DNA from: Streptantibioticus ferralitis
GTDB lineage: Bacteria; Actinomycetota; Actinomycetes; Streptomycetales; Streptomycetaceae
Length of the DNA: 35,003 nucleotides
Reading direction: 5' to 3'
Assembly (NCBI RefSeq): GCF_029223525.1
Contig: NZ_JARHTQ010000053.1
Span: forward strand, 1-35,003
The position numbers and the translations under genes are program-made. Position 1 is the stretch's first letter, and each line of letters begins with the position of its first letter. Positions 16,977 to 34,990 of this stretch are shown one piece after another. Under the pieces are notes generated by a model. That model searched no databases. It saw nothing but the letters and a program-made list of their open reading frames with translations, and was not told the origin of the DNA.

Positions 16977-17750
16977 GAGGGCGAACGATGCCTGCGCCGA
17001 ACCGACTCCGCCCGCTGTCACCTTGACCTGGTACGTACCGGAAGCCGCGGTCTGCGCACCGGACGGCGAGGCGCACTGCGGAACGCTCAGGGTGCGGTCC
17101 CACTGCACGTAGAAGGTGGCCGAGCCGCCCGCCGGAACCTGCAGCGGGTACGCCTCGTGGGTGGGCGGGCAGTCATCCGACGCCCACACATGGTGACCGG
17201 AGCCGTCGACGATGGTGACCACCGCGGCGGTGCTGCCGAAGTCCACCTTGCAGGCGCTGCCACCGGAGTTGACCGCCGTCAGCTCGAACTTCGGTTTGTC
17301 GGTCAGGTCGTAGGTGTCCTTCGCGCTGCGCAGCTTCAACTGCACCTGCGAGGAAGCGCAGCCGGGCAGCGAGGAGTTCGCCGGGAGGGGCGGCGGGTTG
17401 CCGCCGGACGTACCGCCGCTGCCCGAAGCACCGGCGGAGCCGGCGCCGCCGGAGGTGTCGGCACCGCCCGCGCCGCCGGACGAGCCGGTGCCGCCGGAGG
17501 TGTCGCGACCGCCCGGCCGTGCCGTGATGCCGGTCTGGCTGCTGGTCGGGCCGGGGGTGATGGAGGGAACCGGAGTGCGGCCGCCGGGTCCGTGCGCCGA
17601 GCTCTTGTGTCCAGCAGTGCCGTCACCACCTGAGGTCAGCGTCCAGACTATGAGCCCGACGAGGAGCACGAACAGGCCCAGCACAACTGCCCGCCGCCGC
17701 CAGTAGATGGAGGAGGGCAGGGGGCCCACCGGGTTGCGCAGATTGCCCAC
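16962..17750 (-). CDS. Membrane-anchored extracytoplasmic protein of unknown function
   Basis: 262 residues with one membrane helix at about 21-40 (AVVLGLFVLLVGLIVWTL) preceded by YWRRR, so the C-terminal part should be outside. A long Gly/Ser/Thr/Pro linker (about 45-125) contains repeated GGAG/TSGG stretches. The C-terminal domain (about 128-262) is beta-rich with four cysteines (PGCASS, SACKVD, DDCPPT, PQCASP) and reads like a DUF4232-type immunoglobulin-like fold. Function is unknown. GTG 17750 has TAGAGT exactly 7 nt upstream and no ribosome site. Confidence 0.8.
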   Translation of the reverse strand: MGNLRNPVGPLPSSIYWRRRAVVLGLFVLLVGLIVWTLTSGGDGTAGHKSSAHGPGGRTPVPSITPGPTSSQTGITARPGGRDTSGGTGSSGGAGGADTSGGAGSAGASGSGGTSGGNPPPLPANSSLPGCASSQVQLKLRSAKDTYDLTDKPKFELTAVNSGGSACKVDFGSTAAVVTIVDGSGHHVWASDDCPPTHEAYPLQVPAGGSATFYVQWDRTLSVPQCASPSGAQTAASGTYQVKVTAGGVGSAQASFALNGGS

Positions 17751-29154: not shown

Positions 29155-29952
29155 CTACATCACCGACACGTTGCGTTCGTAGACCAGGCGCAGACCGATC
29201 AGGGTCAGCCAGGGCTCGTGGGCGTCGATGATGGAGGCCTCGCCCAGCACCAGGGGGGCGAGGCCGCCCGTGGCGATGACCGTCACGTCGTCCGGGTCGT
29301 CGGCCAGTTCGCGGGCCATCCGCTCGCCGATGCCGTCCACCTGGCCGGCGAAGCCGTACAGGATGCCGGACTGCATCGCCTCGACCGTGTTCTTGCCGAC
29401 GACGCTGCGCGGCCGGGCCAGCTCGATCTTGCGCAGTTGCGCACCGCGCACCCCGAGCGCGTCCACCGAGATCTCGATGCCGGGTGCGATCGCGCCGCCC
29501 AGGTACTCACCGCGCGCGGAGACCGCGTCGAAGGTGGTGGCGGTGCCGAAGTCGACCACGATGCACGGGCCGCCGTAGAGATGGACCGCGGCCAGCGCGT
29601 TGATGATGCGGTCGGCGCCGACCTCCTTGGGGTTGTCCGCCAGCACCGGCACCCCGGTCTTCACGCCCGGTTCCACCAGCACCGAGGGCACGTCCCCGTA
29701 GTAACGCCGGGTCACCTCGCGCAGCTCGTGCAGCACCGAGGGGACGGTCGAGCAGATCGAGATGCCGTCGATCCCGTCGCCCAGGTCGTCGCCGAGCAGC
29801 GGGTGCATGCCCATCAGCCCCTGCAGCAGTACCGCCAACTCGTCGGCGGTGCGCCGCGCGTCGGTGGAGATCCGCCAGTGCTCGACGATCTCCTCGCCGT
29901 CGAACAGGCCGAGGACGGTATGGGTGTTGCCGACGTCGATGGTGAGCAGCAT
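29155..29952 (-). CDS. coaX: Type III pantothenate kinase
   Basis: Phosphorylates pantothenate in the first committed step of CoA synthesis; 265 residues. The ASKHA-fold phosphate motifs are TIDVGNTHTVLG (starting at Asp6) and DFGTATTFDAV. KEVGADRIINALAA and GGAIAPGIEISVDAL are further type III signatures. The ATG shares its A with the TGA of nadC (TGATG), so translation is coupled. It is the last gene of the operon and uses pantothenate made by PanC in the same transcript. Confidence 0.95.
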   Translation of the reverse strand: MLLTIDVGNTHTVLGLFDGEEIVEHWRISTDARRTADELAVLLQGLMGMHPLLGDDLGDGIDGISICSTVPSVLHELREVTRRYYGDVPSVLVEPGVKTGVPVLADNPKEVGADRIINALAAVHLYGGPCIVVDFGTATTFDAVSARGEYLGGAIAPGIEISVDALGVRGAQLRKIELARPRSVVGKNTVEAMQSGILYGFAGQVDGIGERMARELADDPDDVTVIATGGLAPLVLGEASIIDAHEPWLTLIGLRLVYERNVSVM

Positions 29953-30971
29953 CAGCTCTGCTCCGCCCTGAAGTCCAGGCCGATGTCGAGGATCGGCGAG
30001 GAGTGGGTGAGCGCGCCGACCGCGAGGTAGTCCACGCCGGTCTCGGCGTACGCGCGGGCGTTCTCCAGCGTCAGACGGCCGGAGGACTCCAGGAGGGCGC
30101 GGCCCGCGACGATCGCGACCGCCTCCTCGGTCTCCACGGGAGTGAAGTTGTCCAACAGGATCAAGTCGGCCCCGGCGTCCAGGACTTCACGCAGCTGGTG
30201 GAGGGTGTCGACCTCGACCTCGATGGCCAGCTCGGGGAACTCCGCGCGCACCGCCCGGAACGCCTCGGCGACGCCTCCGGCCGCGACCACGTGGTTGTCC
30301 TTGACCAGCGCCGCGTCGGAGAGCGACATCCGGTGGTTGACGCCGCCGCCGCAGCGCACCGCGTACTTCTCCAACGCCCGCAGCCCGGGAGTGGTCTTGC
30401 GGGTGTCGCGGACCTTCGCCTTGGTGCCTTCCAGCGCGTCGGCCCAGGCGCGGGTGGCGGTGGCGATGCCGGACAGCCGGCACAGCAGGTTGAGCGCGCT
30501 GCGCTCGCCGGTGAGCAGATCACGGGTGCGGGTGCGTACGGTCAGCAGCACCTGGCCCGCCTCGACCCGGTCGCCGTCCTCGACGTGCCGCTCGACCTCG
30601 AACTCGTCGGTGCAGACCACGGAAAGGACCGCCTCGGCGATCCGCAGACCCGCCACCGTACCCGCCTCGCGGGCGGTGAAGTCGGCCACCGACATGGCGT
30701 CTTCGGGCACCGTCGCCACCGTCGTCACGTCCACGCCGTTGTCGAGGTCCTCCTCGATGGCCATGTGCGCGATGTCCTCGACCTGCACCGGGTCGAGTCC
30801 GGCGGCGGCGAGCAGCTCGGCAAGGTCGGGGTCGAGACCGCACTCCAGCGGATCGATGTCGTACACCTCGGATTCGCCGCAGCCGCAGGCGTCACCGCAG
30901 CCTCCCCCCGAGTCGGCCGGTACTTGGCCCGGGCGGCCGATCTGGAGGAGGGGAAGGTCGGGCGTGCTCAT
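29952..30971 (-). CDS. nadC: Nicotinate-nucleotide pyrophosphorylase (quinolinate phosphoribosyltransferase)
   Basis: Converts quinolinate and PRPP to nicotinate mononucleotide, CO2 and PPi; 339 residues. Catalytic motifs include RKTTPGLRALEKYAVRCGGGVNHRM and VKDNHV, then EVEVDTL, LLDNF and TLENARAYAETGVDYLAVGALTHS split over the C-terminal barrel. Compared with the usual 280-290 residues there is an N-terminal extension of about 50 residues with four cysteines (Cys25, 29, 31, 44; GGGCGDACGCGES), which could bind a metal. The ATG overlaps the nadB stop (ATGA). Confidence 0.95.
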   Translation of the reverse strand: MSTPDLPLLQIGRPGQVPADSGGGCGDACGCGESEVYDIDPLECGLDPDLAELLAAAGLDPVQVEDIAHMAIEEDLDNGVDVTTVATVPEDAMSVADFTAREAGTVAGLRIAEAVLSVVCTDEFEVERHVEDGDRVEAGQVLLTVRTRTRDLLTGERSALNLLCRLSGIATATRAWADALEGTKAKVRDTRKTTPGLRALEKYAVRCGGGVNHRMSLSDAALVKDNHVVAAGGVAEAFRAVRAEFPELAIEVEVDTLHQLREVLDAGADLILLDNFTPVETEEAVAIVAGRALLESSGRLTLENARAYAETGVDYLAVGALTHSSPILDIGLDFRAEQS

Positions 30972-32857
30972 GAGCGGGGCTCCCTGTTGCTGCGGTGGAC
31001 GGGCGGGAAGTCTGCGGTCGCGGTGGGCGAAACGGACAGGGTCCGCTCGGGGGTCAGGCGAACGACCAGGTGGCGGCGCCAGTTGAGGTCGTCGCGGTCA
31101 GGGCGGTCCTCGCGCCAGTGGCAGCCGCGGGTCTCCTCACGGCGGCGGGCCGCGGCGACCAGCACGCGGGCGACCAGGTTGAGGTTGGTGGCCTCCCAGG
31201 TCTCCACGCAGGGCTCGGCGGTCTTGTGGTCGCGCTCCAGGTCCTCGACCGCCTGGGTGTGGATGCGCTCCAGCTCGGCGGCGGCTCGCGCCAGGCTCTC
31301 GGCGCTGCGCAGGACGCCCGCGCCCCGCGTCATCACGCGTTGGATCTCGTAGCGCGCGGAGTGCTCGAGCAGCGGATCACCGGAGGGGCCGGGCACGACC
31401 GGCGCACCGGCCGCCGGAGGGTTGGCCAGGATGTCGTCGGCGATGCGCTCGGCGAACACCAGGCCTTCCAGCAGCGAGTTGGAGGCCAGCCGGTTGGCTC
31501 CGTGCACACCGGTGCAGGCGACCTCTCCGCACGCGTACAGGCCGGGCACGGTGGTACGGCCGTGCAGATCGGTCCGTACGCCACCGGAGGCGTAGTGCGC
31601 GGCGGGCGCGACCGGGATCGGCTCGGTCACCGGGTCGATGCCGTTGGCGCGGCAGGCGGCGAGGATCGTCGGGAAGCGGCGGGCCCACATCTCGGCGCCG
31701 AAGTGCCGGGCGTCGAGGTACATGTGCTCGGCGCCGGTCTGCTGCATACGGCGCATGATGCCCTTGGCGACGATGTCGCGGGGGGCCAACTCGGCCAGCT
31801 CGTGCTGGCCCTGCATGAACCGCACGCCGTCGGCGTCGACGAGATGGGCGCCCTCTCCCCGTACCGCCTCGGAGACCAGCGGCTGCTGGCCCTCGGCCTC
31901 CGGGCCGAGCCACAGCACGGTCGGGTGGAACTGGACGAACTCCAGGTCGGAGACCTCGGCCCCGGCCCGCAGGGCCAGCGCGACACCGTCACCGGTGGAG
32001 ACGGCGGGGTTGGTGGTGGCCGAGAAGACCTGGCCCATGCCGCCGGTGGCCAGTACGACGGCGGGCGCGTGCACGGCGCCCACGCCGTCGCGCTGCCCCT
32101 CGCCCATCACATGCAGCGTGACACCGGCGGTACGGCCCCGCGTGTCGGTGAGCAGATCCAGCACGAGCGCGTTCTCGATCGTCTCGATCCTCCCCTGGCC
32201 TTCGGCATGGGGGACCCCGCGGCCTTCGGCATGGGGAACCCCGGGGCCTTCGGCATGGGGAACCCCGGGGCCTTCGGCATGGGGGACCCCGGGGCCCTCG
32301 GCATGGGGAACCCCGGGGCCCTCGGCATGGGGAACCCCGGGGCCCTCGGCATGGGGAACCCCGGTGCCCTCGGCATGGGGGACCCCGACGCGCACCGCCT
32401 CGACCAGCGCGCGGGAGACCTCGGCCCCGGTCGCGTCGCCGCCCGCGTGCGCTATCCGGCTGCGGTGGTGGCCGCCCTCGCGGGTCAGCAGGATCTCGCC
32501 GGTCGCCTCGGAGGTGTCGAACCGCGCACCGGAGGCGATCAACCGCCGTACCGCGTCCGGGCCTTCGGTGACCAGGGTGCGTACCGCGGGCTCGTCGCAC
32601 AGCCCGGCGCCCGCGACCAGCGTGTCGTCCAGATGCTGCTGCGGGGTGTCGCCGTCACCCAGCGCGGCGGCGATGCCGCCCTGCGCCCAGCGGGTCGAGC
32701 CGTCGTCCAGCTTCGCCTTGGTGACGACGGTGACCTTGGCCCCCGCGGCGGCGCAGCGCAGCGCGGTCGTCAGCCCCGCGACGCCGGAGCCGACGACGAC
32801 CACATCGGCCTCGATGGCCCAGCCGGGCGCCGGGGCGAGCAGCCGTATGTCGCTCAT
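30968..32857 (-). CDS. nadB: L-aspartate oxidase with an octapeptide-repeat insertion
   Basis: FAD enzyme oxidising L-aspartate to iminoaspartate, the first step of NAD synthesis; 629 residues. The dinucleotide motif is [17 protein letters not shown] (19-35). [47 protein letters not shown] and [14 protein letters not shown] are family signatures, so the reading frame is intact. The oddity is residues 157-220: eight copies of GVPHAEG plus one variable residue (T, P or R, Q) inserted between the helix ending ALVEAVR and the strand [13 protein letters not shown]. Other Streptomyces enzymes, as I recall, have only a few residues there. The insertion is a 24-bp minisatellite and keeps frame. It overlaps panC and nadC by 4 bp each. 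Confidence 0.95.
32197..32388. repeat. 8 x 24-bp tandem minisatellite inside nadB
   Basis: Eight adjacent 24-bp units, plus-strand core GGCCTTCGGCATGGGGAACC then CCGG. Units 1-4 carry CCTTCGG and units 5-8 CCCTCGG. Units 1, 4 and 8 have GGGGGACCCC, the others GGGGAACCCC. Unit 8 begins with T, and units 1 and 8 differ at the end (C and A). The unit contains a GGGG-TT-CCCC mini-hairpin. Because 24 is a multiple of 3, all six frames stay open across the array. Confidence 0.97.
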
Positions 32858-33708
32858 GAGCGGGCTCCGAACTCCAGGGGAAGGTTGTCGATCAGCCGGG
32901 TGGTGCCGACCCTGGCCGCGACGGCGAGGACCGCCGGGCCGGTGTGGCCGGGCGCGGCCTCGGTGAAGTCCGCCGGGTCGACCAGGGCAAGGTAGTCCAC
33001 GGCCATGCCGTCGGACGCGTCGAGTACGGAGCGAGCCGCCTCGCGGACCGCCTCGGGGCCGTCGGCGAGCGCGTCCCGCCCGGCGAACAGGGCGCGGGAC
33101 AGCGCGAGGGCGGTGCGCCGCTCGTCCTCGGACAGATAGCGGTTCCGGCTGGACAGCGCGAGGCCGTCGGATTCGCGGACGGTGGGCACCCCGACGACTT
33201 CCACACCGAAGTTGAGGTCGGCCACCATGCGGCGGATCAGCGAGAGTTGCTGGGCGTCCTTCTGGCCGTAGAAGGCGACGTCCGGCCGGGTGAGGTGGAG
33301 CAGCTTGGCGACGACGGTGAGCATGCCGTCGAAGTGGCCGGGGCGACAGGCGCCTTCGTAGCGCTCGCCCATCGGCCCCGCGGTGATCCGGACCTGGGGT
33401 TCGCCTCCCGGGTAGACCTCGTCGGTGCCGGGCGCGAAGACGATGTCGGCGCCGGCCTGTTCGGCGATCTTCAGATCCGCGTCCAACGTGCGCGGATAGC
33501 GGTCGAGGTCCTCGTTCGGGCCGAACTGCAGGGGGTTGACGAACACGGTGACCATGACCCGGCCGTCGCCCACCCGCTCCCTGGCGGTACGGATCAGCGT
33601 GGCGTGTCCTTCGTGCAGCGCGCCCATCGTCATCACCACGGCGAGCCGGCCGGACGCGCCGGCCACCAGCGCGTCCAGTTCACCCGAGGTGTGCACCAGC
33701 TCCGTCAT
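32854..33708 (-). CDS. panC: Pantoate--beta-alanine ligase
   Basis: Joins pantoate and beta-alanine with ATP to make pantothenate; 284 residues. It has the cytidylyltransferase-like motif MGALHEGH (His32, His35), [18 protein letters not shown], the [15 protein letters not shown] segment, FYGQKDAQQ and the KMSKS-like ALSSRNRYL. The ATG overlaps the stop of the DUF2520 gene, and its own stop overlaps the nadB start (both ATGA). Confidence 0.96.
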
Positions 33709-34699: not shown

Positions 34700-34990
34700 T
34701 TACGGGTGCGCTCGCGCTGGCGTTTGGGGGTTCGCCCGCCCGCCCACCCGTTGCCGTGTTCCGTATCGCGCCGTCCCGCCCGACCCGCGCCCGACCGGCC
34801 GCGGGTCGGGGCCGCGGGGGGGGGTCTACGCGGGGGGGGGCCCCCCCCCGCTACCGATCCAGCTGGGGAGGTTGGTCCCCACCCGGCGGGGACACCCCCC
34901 CACGTCCCCAGCGGGCTCCTGCGCGCGGCGGCGTGGGGGGTTTCGGGGCCCCCGCGAACCCCTACGCGCCCCCCGCGCCGACGCGTGCCC
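34700..34990. repeat. Intergenic repeat related to 10.14-10.45 kb, and G/C homopolymer tract
   Basis: 34700-34781 repeats the arrangement seen at 10147-10231 (GGTGCGCTCGCGCTGGCG, then CCACCCGTTGCCGTGTTCCG). 34885-34925 parallels 10419-10470 (GGGGACACCCC, then a C-run and CTGCGCGCG). Inside lies a G9 tract (34816-34824) and a G9C9 palindrome (34832-34849). No gene-like coding was seen in 34680-35003. Confidence 0.5.

Follow-up and report, generated by a model that had tools for sequence, protein, structure and literature searches.

A dispersed 27-bp palindrome-like element and its in-frame tandem array in nadB of Streptantibioticus ferralitis

The nadB gene and its tandem array

The window analysed here is a stretch of 35,003 nucleotides that forms an entire contig (G000:C59) of the Streptantibioticus ferralitis genome (G000), a draft of 8.8 Mb in 110 contigs. 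It contains nadB, which encodes L-aspartate oxidase and overlaps panC at its start and nadC, the next gene of the pathway, at its end (Table 1). No tRNA or tmRNA genes are present in the window. Elsewhere in it, a 45-bp tandem repeat of 2.6 copies (17400-17515) falls in a Ser/Gly-rich part of a minus-strand open frame, and an inverted poly-G/poly-C stretch (34810-34850) is found close to the contig end.

Table 1. Features of the nadB region (window coordinates)
Feature	Position	Strand	Basis
nadC, next pathway gene, overlaps nadB end	29952..30971	-	ORF; TIGR00078, E 5.1e-93
nadB, L-aspartate oxidase, 629 aa, array-bearing	30968..32857	-	ORF, NCBIfam, Pfam, PDB match 1chu/1knp
Array, eight 24-bp units, (GVPHAEGx)8, residues 158-221	32195..32386	-	Unit listing in coding phase
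Sub-block 1, units 1-4, Glu codon GAG; units 2-4 identical	32291..32386	-	Unit listing
Sub-block 2, units 5-8, Glu codon GAA	32195..32290	-	Unit listing
Eighth unit as full 27-mer GGGGTCCCCCATGCCGAAGGCCAGGGG	32192..32218	-	Last unit extends to 32192
panC, upstream neighbour, overlaps nadB start	32854..33708	-	ORF; TIGR00018, E 1.1e-81

An earlier note on this DNA, made from the sequence alone, had described an in-frame octapeptide array within an otherwise intact NadB, and both parts of the description hold. The nadB frame is open throughout despite the array, and the protein scores above the NCBIfam cut-offs, with 842.7 against 639 bits for PRK07804 and 535.7 against 452.75 bits for TIGR00551, the latter match falling in two stretches. 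Judged by its sequence, nadB is a normal L-aspartate oxidase gene apart from the array. The note had also called the enzyme 'essential', which overstates the case, since cells depend on NadB only if NAD salvage falls short.

Tandem Repeats Finder places the array at 32197-32387, in another phase, with a period of 24, 8.0 copies and 95% matches; its score of 319 is the highest of the 19 rows returned for the window. Identity at period 24 over the best 168 bp is 0.95, compared with a maximum of 0.45 in 20 base shuffles of the window. The sole variable residue is the eighth of each unit, which reads T, P, P, P, P, P, R and Q from unit 1 to unit 8, and the differences in Val and Glu codons between units are synonymous. 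The Glu codon separates the two sub-blocks that had been noticed before. GTC is the Val codon in units 1, 5 and 8, a recurrence that duplication of a three- or four-unit block would produce. Exact direct repeats within the array reach only 55 bp, so that an assembler could resolve it, and its presence in frame within nadB is confirmed. Folding of the array RNA is no better than that of shuffles (z -0.18).

In an AlphaFold2 model (38 sequences, mean pLDDT 71.6) the array lies between a helix (141-157) and a strand (224-227), as the earlier note had anticipated, with residues 161-220 below a pLDDT of 50. On this model, a disordered surface extension of 64 aa is the most fitting description of the array.

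A 27-bp element dispersed in the Streptomycetaceae

The 24-bp unit forms the core of a 27-bp palindrome-like sequence, GGGGTYCCCCATGCCGRAGGCCAGGGG, the longer common core being seen from the flanks of copies. The earlier note had proposed that the unit be sought in its own and other genomes. A comparison of the array with its own genome gave one further exact 22-bp match on a different contig, and exact 24-mers of the array are also present in G001, a genome of the same genus. When up to two mismatches are allowed, GGGGTYCCCCATGCCGRAGGCCAGGGG is found 77 times, in 31 of the 394 Streptomycetaceae genomes searched; four of these matches overlap array units, and the reversed pattern used as a control has 0 in the same 394 genomes. 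S. ferralitis itself has an exact single 27-mer at C22:359237, and matches also occur in 30 further genomes. The eighth-unit 27-mer, GGGGTCCCCCATGCCGAAGGCCAGGGG, is identical to dispersed copies in G009, G035, G235, G103 and G284.

A relaxed pattern, consisting of the GGGGT palindrome with some stem positions left open, was applied to 14 genomes. It has 16 matches in S. ferralitis (array units included), 34 in G103, 44 in G008, 56 in G141 and 226 in G034, the highest count, with 0-2 matches per genome for the controls. Adjacent copies were found in three of the 394 genomes, S. ferralitis with seven junctions and G136 and G380 with one each, by a pattern with zero mismatches outside the open positions, which more diverged arrays would escape. 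Within the 27-bp family, no array more expanded than that in the NadB of S. ferralitis was found.

The unpaired end of the element is GGGGT, and a direct reading of all six frames shows no stop codon in the element. How palindromic is it? A nine-pair hairpin was scored for covariation in 23 hand-picked variants and compared with shuffles. In these, 84.5% of cells are paired (78.3% when shuffled) and the covariation score is 0.166 (0.082 when shuffled). Double-sided changes are seen in one of the nine pairs, whereas shuffles average 2.7 such pairs; the shuffles also have more pair types (7.9, compared with 6 in the variants). The signal comes from the single position 14-20 (CG in 10, GC in 6 and AU in 5 of the 23 variants), and the structure shifted by one column (+1) still scores 0.130. 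The nadB subtype of the element, in which the predicted hairpin has an internal loop, folds no better than its own shuffles (z -0.18 and 0.60). Since this subtype folds like shuffles and the covariation as a whole is weak, the evidence for the palindromic nature of the element is moderate.

The edges of insertions are blurred by microhomology, and no target duplication was noticed by eye. In G407 an inverted pair of copies approximately 1 kb apart was considered as the ends of an IS; the flanks share a longer repeat. Likewise, some intergenic-looking 27-mers in G001 (L003-L005), G407 (L244-L247) and G310 (L249) are within longer conserved repeats with shared flanks. These longer repeats are possibly a larger parent element.

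Occupied and insert-free sites in NadB and other proteins

The segment that follows GGDATG was obtained from 111 of 144 NadB loci, a redundant set. GVPHAEG is absent from 103 of these, most of which have a segment of 73 or 74 residues. The eight that contain it comprise the window itself (five), G001 (two) and G034 (one). G001 and G034 have one unit, in segments of 81 and 82 residues, compared with eight units and 137 residues in the window, while the NadB of G002, also of the same genus, is without the insert. The G034 gene differs by 27 bp from the VRAARIEF type of G044, and insert-free nadB genes have nothing similar to the unit at the site. The alignment of NadB orthologues, which the earlier note had suggested, gives a unit number of zero, one or eight rather than a uniform one.

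In a NadB tree of 35 rows, built with the loop left out, G034 groups with the insert-free L069 (97/91). The clade of S. ferralitis, G001, G002, G009, G017 and G040 (97/97) contains four members without the insert and two, S. ferralitis and G001, with it. Because G034 stands apart from that clade and groups with an insert-free sequence, the sequences are most simply explained by separate insertions at one loop, for which repeated loss or gene exchange may be an alternative. Other extra residues are found at the same place in five Streptomyces loci (L065, L072, L141, L093 and L098) and in G008, which suggests that the loop tolerates insertions. The Glu codon GAG is present in four of the eight array units and in G001, but in only 1 of 57 copies outside nadB; its enrichment in nadB copies points to synonymous drift within the NadB frame.

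Copies in other genes were sought by a GC-frame test, based on the GC content of each codon position (GC3) in both flanks of a copy within one open frame. It was applied to 77 distinct fetched copies, a different set from the 77 pattern matches in 31 genomes. Twenty copies pass, in 18 gene copies, in four frames and both orientations: nadB in three genomes and 15 others. The 57 that fail include two of the four window units tested, which makes the test a strict one; the remaining 55 mostly look intergenic, like known REPs. Besides NadB, the families hit are MurD, homoserine dehydrogenase (hom), IspE, alpha-glucan phosphorylase, a P-type ATPase, a BTAD/NB-ARC regulator, a carboxyl transferase, HrpA, a DinG/YoaA-like helicase, two zinc dehydrogenases, an FAD reductase, an AAA/LuxR-type regulator, a helicase-C protein and NadA, the pathway partner of NadB.

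Orthologues free of the 27-mer were read for 11 genes, NadB included. They are all of those compared for NadA (4/4), CopA-like (3/3), HrpA (3/3) and IspE (8/8). All readable relatives are likewise without the 27-mer for DinG-like (3 of 4), FAD reductase (2 of 4) and PccB-like (3 of 5), these counts omitting one, two and two unreadable relatives, respectively. The gain is 27 bp in IspE, DinG-like and the NadB of G034, and 24 bp in NadA, CopA-like, HrpA, FAD reductase and, relative to G009, PccB-like. The cleanest case is NadA, in which four of four relatives have RFAPEGKE where G310 (L189, G310:C20) reads RFAPGLRHGEPQEGKE, a net gain of eight residues in frame. The IspE of G034 has nine residues more than relatives such as those of G007 and G017. 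Structure alignments are gapped at the inserts in MurD (209-238, 3lk7) and in the phosphorylase (481-510, 9l6i), and in G136 the copy within the phosphorylase gene comprises three tandem units at a 27-bp period. Several relatives have different inserts at the same gene sites.

Origin of the array and related repeats

The array is very probably a dispersed, REP/RPE-like element of 27 bp that was inserted in frame in the helix-strand loop of NadB and then amplified to eight units. Dispersed copies, NadB with zero, one and eight units, and in-frame copies elsewhere with insert-free orthologues are all directly observed. A palindromic element would have entered the loop that joins the helix following GGDATG to the next strand, moving as a unit, and slippage or unequal exchange would then have amplified it in tandem to eight 24-bp units. 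That insertion came first and amplification second is suggested by the zero, one and eight series together with the single copies elsewhere. The frame would be kept since both lengths, 24 and 27, are divisible by three, and since the element is stop-free in six frames. The insertion may have been near-neutral, with a loop that tolerates the flexible GVPHAEGx peptide and selection purging damaging insertions. Weighing against this origin are the failure to find a mover, the folding and covariation results, the blurred insertion edges, the 57 fetched copies that fail the GC-frame test and the different inserts of several relatives. The array, its sub-blocks, its loop and its local expansion, read from the tandem units and their sub-blocks, were recognized in the earlier note; that the unit is a dispersed element, also in frame in unrelated genes, was overlooked.

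Two classes of repeats are comparable. In the available text of two papers, the RPEs are short palindrome-forming repeats of about 105-150 bp, fused in frame into genes of conserved proteins and tolerated there (PMC2229807, PMC10969869). In that of a third, GTAG/CGTC REPs are imperfect palindromes of 20-40 bp with an unpaired tag, dispersed and mostly intergenic, with some in frame; intragenic clusters encode 43-82 aa, REPs lie at about the same recB site in two Xanthomonas species, and RPE-4 and RPE-6 are short CGTC REPs (PMC3733652). The 27-mer resembles RPEs and, going by a reference title, the protein-coding palindromic repeats of Wolbachia in being in frame in conserved genes, 18 gene copies by the GC-frame test with 27-mer-free orthologues for 11 genes. 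It differs from RPEs in its 27 bp, its GC-richness and its Streptomycetaceae hosts, the comparison being one of descriptions rather than of sequences. Its size and many dispersed copies are those of a REP (20-40 bp), but its tag is GGGGT, its host belongs to the Actinomycetota and it has no relation to Y1 transposase genes. By analogy, the element would work like REPs or RPEs, without necessarily belonging to either class. The available text of the REP paper has 0 occurrences of 'actinobacteri' (PMC3733652), and a stem-loop survey (PMC1590033) names Streptomyces only in its reference list. Among the literature matches listed, which covered few subscription papers, there is no report of such an element for Streptomyces, which is weak evidence of absence. 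The MIRU-VNTR minisatellites of mycobacteria also have a dispersed unit that is found either singly or as tandem arrays, in some cases within coding sequence, as is the 27-mer; the unit here is smaller and palindrome-like.

How does a 27-bp element move without an evident transposase? One answer is that the copies are GTAG/CGTC-type REPs mobilized by a RAYT (Y1/HUH) transposase. The imperfect palindrome of 27 bp, whose 5' end is unpaired, the high copy number in some genomes and the intragenic copies, as described for REPs in the available text (PMC3733652), all fit this. However, the end is GGGGT instead of GTAG or CGTC. PF01797, whose match is a RAYT or another IS200-type gene, was found in 5 of 12 genomes and is absent from seven, including S. 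ferralitis, G001, G009 and the copy-rich G008 and G141. G034 has 18 Y1 transposase matches, yet over the 12 genomes the presence of PF01797 does not follow the copy number of the element, and a Y1/RAYT mover was rejected. This origin is unlikely, although RAYT movers may formerly have been present and since been lost. Carriage by phage was also rejected, the exact 27-mer pattern having 0 matches in viral contigs.

The array could instead be a selected functional module, a putative His/Glu/Pro-rich segment that binds metal or tunes length and alters the activity, partner binding or stability of NadB. Eight His and eight Glu are regularly spaced, and only at the eighth residue do the units differ non-synonymously. 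This is improbable, given that unrelated proteins contain the identical peptide or the element read in other frames, that the region is predicted to be disordered and that G002, of the same genus, has a NadB without the array.

GC-rich DNA is prone to slippage, and a 24-bp unit born in this way from the sequence of NadB itself would also give a tandem, homogenized array with sub-blocks. Such a purely local minisatellite is strongly disfavoured by the dispersed copies, one of which is an exact 27-mer on another contig of S. ferralitis, with further matches in 30 other genomes. In addition, insert-free nadB has no similar sequence at the site, and the same peptide is in frame in unrelated genes.

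An assembly artefact is scarcely credible even in a draft of 110 contigs with the array about 2.6 kb from a contig end, as the units differ from one another, their longest exact repeat is 55 bp, the frame is maintained across all eight, and single-unit NadB is present in G001 and G034, which does not confirm the number eight.

The insertion of a dispersed element followed by amplification would mean that short, selfish-looking DNA supplies new protein segments to housekeeping enzymes, for which no report was found in this bacterial group. Since extant relatives show NadB with no copy, one copy and eight copies, it offers a test bed for the tolerance of enzymes to inserted peptides. Annotators should also bear in mind that unusual stretches of streptomycete proteins can be repeats that were inserted, not domains.

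A second dispersed repeat, GCCTCSGTTGAGGGTGGNGGNGGGCGACGGGCGGG, has two in-frame tandem copies 54 bp apart in the murD of S. ferralitis (G000:C99:248137-248225, L258). Allowing three mismatches at most, it is matched at 41 places in S. ferralitis, many of them 53-57 bp apart, at 27 in G001 and at 13 in G002, and at none in 3 of 12 genomes; the control for this pattern has zero matches. The core is 35 bp, and neighbouring copies are often spaced 48-57 bp apart. On balance, we lean towards a wider reading, in which the Streptomycetaceae would harbour two or more unrelated families of very short dispersed repeats (27 bp, and a 35-bp core at a spacing of about 48-57 bp) that keep writing new in-frame peptides into core metabolic and cell-wall enzymes. 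They would repeatedly enter the same permissive loops (those of NadB, MurD and homoserine dehydrogenase), nest in each other and expand in tandem, moved by machinery other than the known REP transposases. The 27-mer is nested inside the second-family repeat in murD and hom of G009. In Streptomyces sp. GESEQ-35 (L072), the NadB loop that corresponds to the 27-mer site of the window contains a piece of the second family, GGGTGGTGGTGGGCGACGGGCGGG.
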